From Kocuria turfanensis (GTDB lineage: Bacteria > Actinomycetota > Actinomycetes > Actinomycetales > Micrococcaceae): DNA of 64,000 bases. The notes below the pieces were generated by a model. The model was not told where the DNA came from, made no database searches, and worked only from the letters and a program-made list of their open reading frames with translations. A program made the position numbers and the translations under genes. The stretch covers positions 1,179,008 through 1,243,007 of the forward strand of contig NZ_CP014480.1 of assembly GCF_001580365.1 (NCBI RefSeq), written 5' to 3'. Below, piece by piece: positions 20,132-23,689 of the stretch (the stretch's first letter is position 1; each line of letters opens with the position of its first letter).

Positions 20132-20398
20132 TCAGAGCCGGGAGGCGTCCACGACGACGTCCACGCTCACCACGTCCCCGTCGTCCTTGTCCCCGCGCAC
20201 GCGCGCCGGCACGGCGAGCAGCCACCCGGCCCGGGAGTCCCGCCAGACGCTGGTGGACCACGTCGTGCCGTCGACCGTGGCCGTCACCGGGACCCGGCCG
20301 AAGGGACCGCGCACGTCGGGGGCGTGCTCCTCCGGCACCGGCGCGAACACCCACGCGCCGGGGCCCGGGTACCGCCGCAGGACCGCTCGGAAGGCCAT
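20132..20398 (-). CDS. Small DUF1905-like protein
   Basis: 88 residues: MAFRAVLRRYPGPGAWVFAPVP followed by a beta-rich segment ending in VVSVDVVVD. The layout (short all-beta protein with G-A-W-x-F near the start) fits DUF1905 proteins of unknown function. Divergent from mshA: the two start codons are 64 bp apart, and both have leaderless-type -10 boxes. It precedes alr by 28 nt, so alr may be read through from the same promoter. Confidence 0.75.
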   Translation of the reverse strand: MAFRAVLRRYPGPGAWVFAPVPEEHAPDVRGPFGRVPVTATVDGTTWSTSVWRDSRAGWLLAVPARVRGDKDDGDVVSVDVVVDASRL

Positions 20399-20462: not shown

Positions 20463-21749
20463 GTGTCCGACGCTCCGCTGCACGTCCTGCTGATCAGCCT
20501 GCACACCAGTCCCCTCGAGCAACCGGGGTCCGGTGACGCGGGCGGGATGAACGTCTACGTGCACCAGCTCGCCGGGGCGCTGGTGGACGCGGGGCACACG
20601 GTGGACATGGCCACCCTGGACCGGGACCCCGGCGCGCCGCGCACCGCGGGGATGCGGGCGTCCCGCATCCGCGAGGGCCTGCGGCTGCTCACGGTCTCGC
20701 TGCCCGGGGCGGCCGGCGCCGCGAAGGAGGACCTCCCGGGACTGACCGGCGCCTTCGCCGAGGTGCTCCGCGCCGAGGCCTCCCGCCCGGACGTGGTGCA
20801 CGCCCACTACTGGCTCTCCGGGGCCGTGGGCCGGGAGCTCGCCGACGACTGGCGCGTGCCCCTGGTGCTCACCCTGCACACCACGGCCCTGGGCAAGAAC
20901 CTGCGGACCCGGGCCGACGAGGGGCTGGAGCCCGCCGCCCGTGCCGAGGCGGAGGCCGAGCTGATCGCACGGGCCGAGGCCACCGTGGTCAACACCCGCA
21001 CCGAGGCCCTGCAGATGGTCGAGCTCTACGACGCCGATCCGGCGCGGCTGACCGTGATCATGCCCGGCGTCGACCTCTCCGCCTTCTCCCCGCCGGAGCC
21101 CGGCGGGAACCGCCGGGCCGGGCCCCGGCCCGGCTCCCCGGGCCGCCCGCTGCGGGTGCTCTTCGCCGGCCGGCTGCAGGCCCTCAAGGGCCCGCACGTG
21201 CTGGTGGACGCGCTCGCCCGGATCCGCGCGGACGCCCCCGGGGTGCCGGTCGAGCTCGAGATCGTGGGCGTGGGCACCCGCCGGTTCACGGCCGGGCTGC
21301 AGCAGCAGGTGCGCGAGCTGGGGCTGGAGGACGCGGTGGGCTTCGGCCCCGCCCTGCCGGCCCCGCAGCTGGCGGAGCGGATGCGCCGCGCCGACGTGGT
21401 GGCCGTGCCCTCCTCCTCCGAGACGTTCGGCCTCGTGGCGCTGGAGGCCCAGGCCTGCGGCACCCCGGTGCTCGCCACGGACGTGGACGGGCTGCGCACC
21501 GCCGTGCTCGACGGGGTCACCGGGCGGCTGGTCGCGGACCGCGACCCCGCGTCGTGGGCGCACGCCCTCCTCGGGCTCGGTCGCGACCCGGAGGCCCTGG
21601 CGCGCATGGGCGCCGCGGCGGCCCGCCGCGCCCGGGAGCACTCCTGGGAGCGCACCGCCCTGGCCACGGCCGAGGTCTACGCCCGGGTCCGGGACCGCGT
21701 GCGGGTACGCCACGGTAGCCGGTGGTGCGTGAATACACTCGAACGGTGA
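20463..21749 (+). CDS. mshA: D-inositol-3-phosphate glycosyltransferase MshA
   Basis: 428-residue GT-B (GT4) enzyme. It transfers GlcNAc from UDP-GlcNAc to inositol phosphate, the first committed step of mycothiol. HTSPLEQPGSGDAGGMNVYV near the N-terminus is the MshA hallmark that binds inositol phosphate; SSSETFGLVALEAQACGTPV holds the nucleotide-sugar Glu residues. GTG at 20463 is chosen by homology of the N-terminus and by the TACAGT box 6 nt upstream. Its stop overlaps the next gene by 4 nt. ino1, which makes the acceptor, is 0.9 kb away, and glmS/glmM for the donor are in the window. Confidence 0.95.
   Translation: MSDAPLHVLLISLHTSPLEQPGSGDAGGMNVYVHQLAGALVDAGHTVDMATLDRDPGAPRTAGMRASRIREGLRLLTVSLPGAAGAAKEDLPGLTGAFAEVLRAEASRPDVVHAHYWLSGAVGRELADDWRVPLVLTLHTTALGKNLRTRADEGLEPAARAEAEAELIARAEATVVNTRTEALQMVELYDADPARLTVIMPGVDLSAFSPPEPGGNRRAGPRPGSPGRPLRVLFAGRLQALKGPHVLVDALARIRADAPGVPVELEIVGVGTRRFTAGLQQQVRELGLEDAVGFGPALPAPQLAERMRRADVVAVPSSSETFGLVALEAQACGTPVLATDVDGLRTAVLDGVTGRLVADRDPASWAHALLGLGRDPEALARMGAAAARRAREHSWERTALATAEVYARVRDRVRVRHGSRWCVNTLER
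21734..21739 (+). promoter_or_regulatory. Leaderless-type -10 inside the 3' end of mshA
   Basis: TACACT, 6 nt before GTG at 21746. It would give the downstream phosphatase-like gene its own leaderless transcript besides read-through from mshA. Confidence 0.5.
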
Positions 21750-22534
21750 CGACTTCGTTCCTTCCCCCCGCCGACCTCGCCCGCCACCTCGACCGCCACC
21801 GTCTCACCGGAGCGGTGGCCACCCCCCGGGAGGCGAACCTGCGCAACATCCAGGGGTTCCTCGACGGCGACCAGCACCAGCACATGGGCGTGGTCCGCAC
21901 CCGGGACTGGACCTACGACGAGGTGTTCGCGCTCATGCGCGACCGGGTCGGCATCTCGCCCGACCGCTCCCACGTGGAGGGCCAGGACACGATCTCCGCC
22001 GAGCTCGCCGTCGCCGCGCTGGAGCGCTACGCGCGCGTGCTCGGGGAGGTGGTCGCCGCCGGCGGGCGCGTGCTCTTCGCCACGGGCCACCCGGCCGGGC
22101 TGTTCCCCGTCTACGCGCAGCTGGCGCGCGTGGCCCGCCGCGCGGGCGCCCACGTCGTCCGGGTCCCGGACGGCTTCGCCTTCGAGGACGGCGACGTGCG
22201 CCAGATCGAGCACGTGGTGATGGTCGAGCAGTACGGGGGCCTGCGGCACACCCACTTCCCCGGGCCGATGTCCCTGGCCCTGGAGAAGCTGCGCCGCGAC
22301 GGGCAGAACCCGCCGGACCTCGTGGTCGCCGACCACGGCCTCGCCGGGGCGGCCGGCTCGCGCGGGCTGCGGACGATCGCGATCGCCGACTGCAACGACC
22401 CCGGGGTGTTCGTCGCCGAGGCGCAGGGCCAGGTGGAGGTCGCCGTCCCGCTCGACGACAATCTGCCGCCGCGTCTCTACGACCCCGTCACCGCGTTCGT
22501 GCTGCGCCGCGCCGGCCTCGAGGACTACGTGTAG
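21746..22534 (+). CDS. Phosphatase-like protein coupled to mshA
   Basis: 262 residues, no signal peptide or membrane segment. It looks like the actinobacterial family usually labelled simply phosphatase; I recognise it by overall pattern, not by a proven motif. Likely active-site patches: FLDGDQHQHMG (about 40-50), ATGHPAGLFPVY (about 112-123), VADHGLAGAAG (about 195-205), IADCNDPGV (about 213-221) and DDNLPPRLY (about 237-245), rich in Asp, His and Asn. GTG at 21746 overlaps the mshA stop by 4 nt, so it is co-translated with MshA. MshA makes a phosphorylated product that must lose phosphate before MshB acts; this gene is well placed for that step. Function is inferred only. Confidence 0.7.
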   Translation: MTTSFLPPADLARHLDRHRLTGAVATPREANLRNIQGFLDGDQHQHMGVVRTRDWTYDEVFALMRDRVGISPDRSHVEGQDTISAELAVAALERYARVLGEVVAAGGRVLFATGHPAGLFPVYAQLARVARRAGAHVVRVPDGFAFEDGDVRQIEHVVMVEQYGGLRHTHFPGPMSLALEKLRRDGQNPPDLVVADHGLAGAAGSRGLRTIAIADCNDPGVFVAEAQGQVEVAVPLDDNLPPRLYDPVTAFVLRRAGLEDYV

Positions 22535-22551
22535 GCCCCGCCGGGCACGGC

Positions 22552-22584
22552 AGGAGCCCCGCACCGGGCCGGTGCGGGGCTCCT
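22552..22584. terminator. Bidirectional terminator between the mshA operon and ino1
   Basis: Long near-perfect GC-rich hairpin (AGGAGCCCCGCACC pairs with GGTGCGGGGCTCCT) between two converging stop codons, serving both strands. Confidence 0.8.
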
Positions 22585-22603
22585 GGGCCCGGAGGGGCGG
22601 CGC

Positions 22604-23689
22604 TCAGCGTTCGAGGTCGCCGCGGATGAAGGCCTCCAGGTTCGCCCGGGCGGTGTCGTCGGCCTGCTGCTCGGGCGGGGACTTCATGAAGTACGCCGCC
22701 GCCGAGGTCAGCGGCCCGCCGATCCCGCGGTCCAGGCCGATCTTCGCCGCCCGGATCGCGTCGATGATCACCCCGGCCGAGTTCGGGGAGTCCCACACCT
22801 CCAGCTTGTACTCCAAGGAGATCGGGGCGTTGCCGAAGCCGTGGCCCTCCAGCCGCACGAAGGCGAACTTGCGGTCATCCAGCCACGGCACGTGGTCGGA
22901 GGGGCCGATGTGCACGTCCTGGGTGCCGAACTCCCGCACCACGTTGGAGGTCACCGCCTGGGTCTTGGAGATCTTCTTGGACTCCAGCCGGGTGCGCTCG
23001 AGCATGTTCATGAAGTCCATGTTCCCGCCCACGTTGAGCTGATAGGTCCGGTCCAGCACGTAGCCGCGGTCCTCGAAGAGCTTGGCCAGCACCCGGTGGG
23101 TGATCGTCGCCCCGATCTGGGACTTGATGTCGTCCCCCACGATCGGCACCCCCGCGGCCGTGAACTTCTCCGCCCACTCCTCGGTGGAGGCGATGAACAC
23201 CGGCAGGGCGTTGACGAAGGCCACCCCCGCGTCCAGGGCGGCCTGGGCGTAGAACCGGTCGGCGGCCTCGGAGCCCACCGGCAGATAGGACACCAGCACG
23301 TCCACCTGCGCCTCCCGCAGCGCCTGCGCGACGTCCACCGGCTCGGCGTCCGACTCCTGGACCATCTCCCGGTAGTAGGCCCCCAGCCCGTCCAGGGTCG
23401 GCCCGCGCTGGACGGTCACCCCGGTGTGCGGGACCGGGGCGAAGACCATGGTGTTGTTCTGCCCGGCGGTGATCGCCTCGCACAGATCGACCCCGACCTT
23501 GGCGGCGTCGACGTCGAAGGCGGCCACGAACTGCACGTCGGAGACGTGGTAGTCGCCGAAGACCACGTGCATCAGCCCGGGCACGGTCTGCCCCGGGTCG
23601 GCGTCGGCGTAGAAGTGCACGCCCTGGATCAGGGACGAGGCGCAGTTGCCGACACCGGCCACGGCCACTCGGATCGGATGGTGGGACAC
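22604..23689 (-). CDS. ino1: Inositol-3-phosphate synthase
   Basis: 361-residue actinobacterial-type myo-inositol-phosphate synthase. It converts glucose-6-phosphate to inositol-3-phosphate with NAD+, for phosphatidylinositol and mycothiol. The NAD-binding [13 protein letters not shown] opens the protein; [15 protein letters not shown] and [13 protein letters not shown] are the conserved active-site segments. GTG at 23687-23689 follows GAAGGAGAA. Its product is the MshA acceptor, and mshA lies nearby in opposite orientation. Confidence 0.96.

Follow-up and report, generated by a model that had tools for sequence, protein, structure and literature searches.

Which enzyme carries out the dephosphorylation between MshA and MshB in mycothiol biosynthesis, and could a gene that overlaps mshA encode it? 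The step is described in the pathway passages of PMC4360819, and the part of PMC2834668 (2010) devoted to it calls a predicted phosphatase missing, suggests ImpC for the role and reports normal mycothiol in impA, suhB and cysQ mutants. The name MshA2 appears in the relevant passages of PMC4360819, PMC10893638, PMC2628429, PMC9736012 and PMC10826361, all open-licence PMC papers, where the gene is not specified, an assignment elsewhere being possible; the original prediction for this DNA, that the step has no firmly assigned gene, agrees with the wording of that part of PMC2834668. The stretch analysed here, referred to as the window, comprises 64,000 nucleotides (nt) of Kocuria turfanensis, a member of the Micrococcaceae (contig NZ_CP014480.1, positions 1,179,008 to 1,243,007). 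In this window, a gene of the Pfam family PF15698, which bears the name "Phosphatase", directly follows mshA and overlaps its stop codon. With a phosphatase-named gene kept behind mshA in seven genera, the question of the missing phosphatase can be put to a direct test in harmless actinobacteria of the laboratory. We tentatively read the pair as a lineage-restricted recruitment, in which a hydrolase with the fold of ribosomal protein uS2 may have become the phosphatase of N-acetylglucosamine-inositol-phosphate (GlcNAc-Ins-P).

Conservation of the mshA-PF15698 gene pair in the Micrococcaceae

The 262-residue product of the second gene matches the PF15698 profile over its full length, with a score of 315.3 bits (cut-off 28.4; residues 11-258 on profile positions 1-256 of 256). 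The original prediction had placed a reading frame of this length on the mshA stop codon with an overlap of 4 nt and had called its product phosphatase-like. The frame and the overlap were confirmed (Table 1); the label is borne out by the family match, but as a Pfam name only, and the predicted fold is uS2-like. The statement that ino1 is the next gene is correct as to adjacency, but ino1 is convergent to the pair, and this orientation together with the intervening hairpin rules it out as an operon member. The 72-nt gap between the PF15698 gene and ino1 has a folding energy of -63.1 kcal/mol (z -5.88), a stability that none of 200 shuffled sequences reached, and its hairpin is a probable bidirectional terminator. 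Because ino1 is convergent and sits behind this strong hairpin, the transcription unit most likely consists of mshA and the PF15698 gene alone, forming a two-gene operon.

Conservation of the pair was analysed in 197 genomes from 32 genera of the family, with MshA matches counted at an E-value of 1e-82. An mshA match is present in 186 of these genomes, and PF15698 in 41 genomes from seven genera. In 40 of the 41, mshA immediately precedes PF15698 in the same orientation, which argues that the pairing is more than chance; in the remaining one (G374), just 184 nt of contig precede the gene. No PF15698 gene was seen anywhere except behind mshA in the 41 genomes. Within the family, the linkage to mshA expected of a lineage-specific MshA2 is thus found in every PF15698 genome but the one cut by its contig end. 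The overlap was examined in 58 loci, which include named records, some of them from the same species, as well as the window's own copy; three are cut short upstream, and the pair is present in all 55 with a complete upstream side. In 10 of these 55 loci, a start codon is placed so as to produce the 4-nt overlap, and the remainder have small gaps or overlaps between the two genes. At many of the family's loci, ino1 is the convergent neighbour of the pair.

A tree of 52 MshA sequences of the family requires at least five changes (gains or losses) of the PF15698 trait, and a quick tree places the family's PF15698 proteins in one clade with a support of 95. Among 20 family genomes that have mshA but lack PF15698, the gene after mshA is of the formate-tetrahydrofolate ligase type in four, mshA directly faces a MaoC-type gene in six and ino1 in two, and it has different neighbours in the others; one member each of the ligase-type and MaoC-type groups was checked by Pfam. 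Sub-cut-off PF15698 matches in four genomes were taken as chance, and the two such loci inspected are antisense to, or overlap, a likelier gene. The PF15698 gene was also considered as a mobile gene and rejected: the phage collection gave no match and the plasmid collection two, with less than 60% identity and both from actinobacterial records of very large size. Under the title Vibrio cholerae strain 35D, one contig (L093) carries an Arthrobacter-like mshA-PF15698-ino1 region, and the record is probably mislabelled or contaminated. The PF15698 gene of Kocuria atrinae (L094, 198-973) matches as two overlapping pieces and may therefore be frameshifted in the draft.

Invariant residues and predicted fold of the PF15698 protein

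Alignment of 101 sequences revealed at least ten His, Asp and Asn residues that are invariant in all of them, including H115, H168, H170, D196, H197, D215, N217, D218, D237 and D238. In the predicted model, these His, Asp and Asn residues are located at or just after the ends of β-strands, an arrangement commonly seen in metal-binding or catalytic sites, and they may form such a site. The structure of the window's protein was predicted with high confidence (predicted local distance difference test, 96.8), and its matches among solved structures are ribosomal protein uS2. To our knowledge, the uS2-like fold is not among the known phosphatase folds, and, by title and abstract, none of the open-licence papers listed on uS2-like folds looked relevant. 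Despite the shared predicted fold, the PF15698 protein is longer than uS2, has its own gene neighbours and possesses the invariant His and Asp residues that we interpret as an active site. If an enzyme-like family does share its fold with a universal ribosomal protein, this would be a remarkable example of a fold put to new use.

Searches by sequence found no solved relative of the protein. The S2 profile PF00318 gave no match to the window's protein up to an E-value of 10 and six weak matches among the 101 relatives (best E-value 0.012), fewer than NAD_binding_10 (14), TP_methylase (10) and Radical_SAM (8), and the claim of kinship with uS2 is therefore carried by the fold. Comparison of the PF15698 and uS2 profiles yielded local P values of 0.0016 and 0.0015, against 0.35 for a reversed control and 0.93 for the global comparison; the MshA profile also reached 0.0036 over 93 columns. 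By Pfam, PF15698 is unrelated to both MshA, its putative operon partner, and MshB, the enzymes on either side of the missing step.

MshA and the mycothiol pathway in the window's genome

The first gene of the pair has MshA (TIGR03449) as its best NCBIfam match, at 357.9 bits. This score is below the cut-off of 462.5, which only 69 of the 197 family genomes reach, and no better MshA match was found elsewhere in the window's genome. The genome also encodes MshC (596.1 bits) and MshD (326.6 bits), both above their cut-offs, in addition to an MshB-like protein (TIGR03445) at 185.1 bits, below the cut-off of 224.35; Ino1 of the locus scores 649.1 bits, above its cut-off of 638.

We further compared the positions that we take to bind UDP-GlcNAc or inositol phosphate in the MshA of Corynebacterium glutamicum, those for inositol phosphate presumably being K78, Y110, T134 and R154. 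The window's MshA keeps them except S21, which is replaced by Ala, and two substitutions at less certain positions. Among 52 MshAs of the family (32 linked to PF15698 and 20 unlinked), 13 such positions are kept with a single exception at D20, and K78, Y110, T134 and R154 (C. glutamicum numbering) are kept in all 52. As the presumed inositol-phosphate residues are retained, the MshA product should be phosphorylated in both the linked and the unlinked group, and should need dephosphorylation.

IMPase genes in genomes with and without PF15698

The inositol monophosphatase (IMPase) family PF00459 is a rival supplier of the same reaction. The window's PF15698 protein has a different predicted fold and gave no PF00459 match up to an E-value of 1. 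Within the family, the number of IMPase genes per genome runs opposite to PF15698: exactly one PF00459 gene was counted in 19 of the 41 genomes with PF15698, two of which (G297 and G394) have weak matches only, compared to one of the 156 genomes without it, which is 71% complete. Four of the 19 single genes were read, and all of them group with HisN; the one that was scored (L213) is above the HisN cut-off. Genus medians of two or fewer IMPase genes occur in five of the seven genera with PF15698 and in two of the 25 without (Fisher p 0.0019, with kinship ignored). The single-IMPase contrast fits a displacement of IMPase by PF15698; it is suggestive, and not independent of kinship.

Displacement of one particular IMPase was considered and rejected. 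Among 70 IMPase-family sequences that were read (49 from genomes lacking PF15698 and 21 from genomes with it), one clade of 16 comes solely from genomes lacking PF15698, and its absence is certain only for the seven PF15698 genomes with a fully listed and read set of matches (G442, G392, G486, G352, G319, G346 and G330). However, relatives of this clade at ~50% identity occur in records named Microbacterium, Mesorhizobium and Devosia, and the clade is therefore not tied to mycothiol.

Distribution beyond the family and possible functions

In a class sample of 296 genomes (MshA at an E-value of 1e-85), PF15698 was found in 89, MshA in 278 and both in 87. The 18 genomes without MshA include two with PF15698, both of them drafts (91% and 86% complete). 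That 87 of the 89 PF15698 genomes have MshA says little, because MshA is so common. Most relatives of the window's protein lie not beside mshA but beside a gene of one sequence cluster, the tested member of which is a histone-deacetylase-family protein (PF00850); we take this neighbour to be acuC. No mshA neighbour of PF15698 was seen outside the Micrococcaceae in 20 fetched loci and in 19 loci of f6, a Brevibacterium-like family of the same order with PF15698 in 34 sampled genomes. In a Streptomyces-like family, 25 of the 27 PF15698-matching genomes carry two or more copies; the second copy is presumably SCO2771, and we assume that the InterPro name goes with SCO2771.

In the recruitment that we tentatively favour, the two-gene operon would probably be translationally coupled. 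MshA would make GlcNAc-Ins-P, which the co-translated PF15698 protein would bind in a pocket at the strand ends, and metal ions, for which the invariant Asp and His residues are the most likely ligands, would activate water on the phosphate. The phosphate would thereby be removed, and GlcNAc-Ins would pass to MshB. Such a recruitment might have taken place in Kocuria, Rothia-like and some Arthrobacter-like genera, from an older protein family of actinobacteria that is usually paired with acuC. A bolder version, which we consider rather unlikely in its entirety, is that PF15698 represents a new enzyme class on the uS2 fold, a metal-dependent phosphomonoesterase with its active site in the place of the D.N.DP loop of uS2, which replaced IMPase-type enzymes as the dedicated GlcNAc-Ins-P phosphatase in part of the Micrococcaceae.

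Several observations weigh against a role in this step. Within the family, 150 of the 156 genomes without PF15698 nevertheless have MshA; in the class sample, PF15698 is absent from 191 of the 278 MshA-bearing genomes, and none was found in the C. glutamicum control. PF15698 as a universal MshA2 is ruled out by this distribution. In 18 class genomes besides the window's in which both genes are listed on one contig, mshA and PF15698 are ~250 kb or more apart, and none of the 19 f6 loci has mshA within ~1.5 kb of PF15698. PF15698 adjoins acuC in 15 of the 20 loci fetched outside the family (L061-L080), and by our gene calls the two overlap by 4 nt in five of these 15; tight coupling of PF15698 is therefore not special to mshA. 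With two PF00459 genes in the window's genome, another phosphatase could do the step, and three or four IMPase genes occur despite PF15698 in genera g119 and g131 and in one g144 genome. A tree-aware IMPase test was not significant, and with its two well-supported independent pairs it could not have become so, and no phosphatase activity of any PF15698 member was found in open-licence PMC papers. The proposal of a mycothiol phosphatase in the original prediction thus stands as a candidate for part of one family, where the gene is a conserved partner of mshA, but fails as a general assignment. The co-occurrence and adjacency that it suggested checking hold in the Micrococcaceae but give way to acuC outside, and a family that is common and unlinked to mshA, which it had named as counting against itself, is what other actinobacteria have. 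So patchy an occurrence suggests that the enzyme used for the dephosphorylation may differ from lineage to lineage, and this would account for the lack of one common MshA2 gene.

Many of these points would be accommodated if PF15698 were a hydrolase or phosphatase acting on a different metabolite, with a job linked to acuC in most actinobacteria, that in this family simply rides along in the mshA transcript, and if IMPase-family or unspecific phosphatases acted on GlcNAc-Ins-P here just as they would in other organisms that make mycothiol. The acuC neighbourhood with its 4-nt overlaps, the many MshA-bearing genomes that manage without PF15698, the two PF00459 genes of the window's genome and the suggestion of ImpC in that part of PMC2834668 all agree with this explanation. 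It sits poorly with the consistent position of PF15698 behind mshA in the family, and nowhere else there, across at least five changes on the MshA tree, and with the retention of HisN as the sole IMPase-family gene in some PF15698 genomes; we regard it as possible, if somewhat doubtful.

The few or absent IMPases besides HisN in many PF15698 genomes, as well as the convergent ino1 at many PF15698 loci, are also compatible with an inositol-1-phosphate phosphatase, which would replace IMPase and feed free inositol or tune inositol phosphate for MshA. However, removal of inositol phosphate would starve MshA of its acceptor, and the coupling is to mshA rather than to ino1, with the hairpin in between, which makes this role distinctly improbable. 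An improbable alternative, too, is that the protein is no catalyst on the pathway, and instead, as a derivative of the uS2 fold, partners MshA in a ligand-binding, structural or regulatory role. The structural matches to ribosomal protein S2 and the sequence search without a solved relative are in line with such a partner, as is the literature search, which found nothing on PF15698 or SCO2771 in open-licence PMC papers; by contrast, the ten or more His, Asp and Asn residues that never vary, and that sit where strands end or just beyond, are characteristic of metal-binding or catalytic sites, and the PF15698 family exists apart from MshA elsewhere.

Locus layout and other mshA neighbourhoods

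The features of the locus are compiled in Table 1; no Rfam matches were found near it.

Table 1. Features of the mshA-PF15698-ino1 locus (window positions)
Feature	Position	Strand	Remark
mshA, D-inositol-3-phosphate glycosyltransferase, divergent	20463-21749	+	GTG start; TGA stop 21747-21749; presumed ligand residues kept
PF15698 "Phosphatase" gene, 262 residues, candidate GlcNAc-Ins-P phosphatase, predicted uS2-like fold	21746-22534	+	
GTGA overlap, 4 nt, of the PF15698 gene start (GTG at 21746) and the mshA stop	21746-21749	+	
Codons 168-170, His-Thr-His	22247-22255	+	H168 and H170 invariant in 101/101
Codons 195-198, Ala-Asp-His-Gly	22328-22339	+	D196, H197 and G198 invariant; strand end
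Codons 215-218, Asp-Cys-Asn-Asp	22388-22399	+	D215, N217 and D218 invariant; aligned to the uS2 motif D.N.DP
Codons 237-238, Asp-Asp	22454-22459	+	Invariant; just after a strand
Hairpin in the gap before convergent ino1	22551-22585	none	16-bp inner stem
ino1, inositol-3-phosphate synthase, convergent, outside the likely operon	22604-23689	-	

The acuC-PF15698 region outside the family is also near proC, a small helix-turn-helix gene, an epimerase and an acyltransferase, and represents a conserved actinobacterial neighbourhood (L061-L080). In other families of the class, the gene after mshA belongs to one small-protein cluster in 19 of 20 loci, and the same holds for four of four f6 loci, often with a 4-nt overlap (23 loci: L120-L140, L143, L146 and L147). 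We take this cluster to be YbjN-type, and the gene that often follows it is presumably phosphoglycerate-mutase-like.

In f7, which belongs to the same order, mshA and a PIG-L (MshB-family) gene have 4 nt in common (L142, 1465-3473), and at a second f7 locus (L144, 1474-3513) mshA and a PIG-L-like part, the latter read by eye, share one frame of 679 residues, which from its sequence would be a natural MshA-MshB fusion. By analogy, such an overlap or single frame may serve as a precedent for pathway coupling at mshA.

Twelve complete genomes of f4, a Microbacteriaceae-like family, have no MshA match at an E-value of 1e-85. When seven of them (G094, G106, G117, G138, G148, G187 and G204) were retested at 1e-50, six were again without MshA, and the match in the seventh (L145) precedes genes that resemble heptose biosynthesis. 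In the window itself, an 88-codon open reading frame lies between alr and mshA (20132-20398, minus strand), and we take its product to resemble DUF1905.

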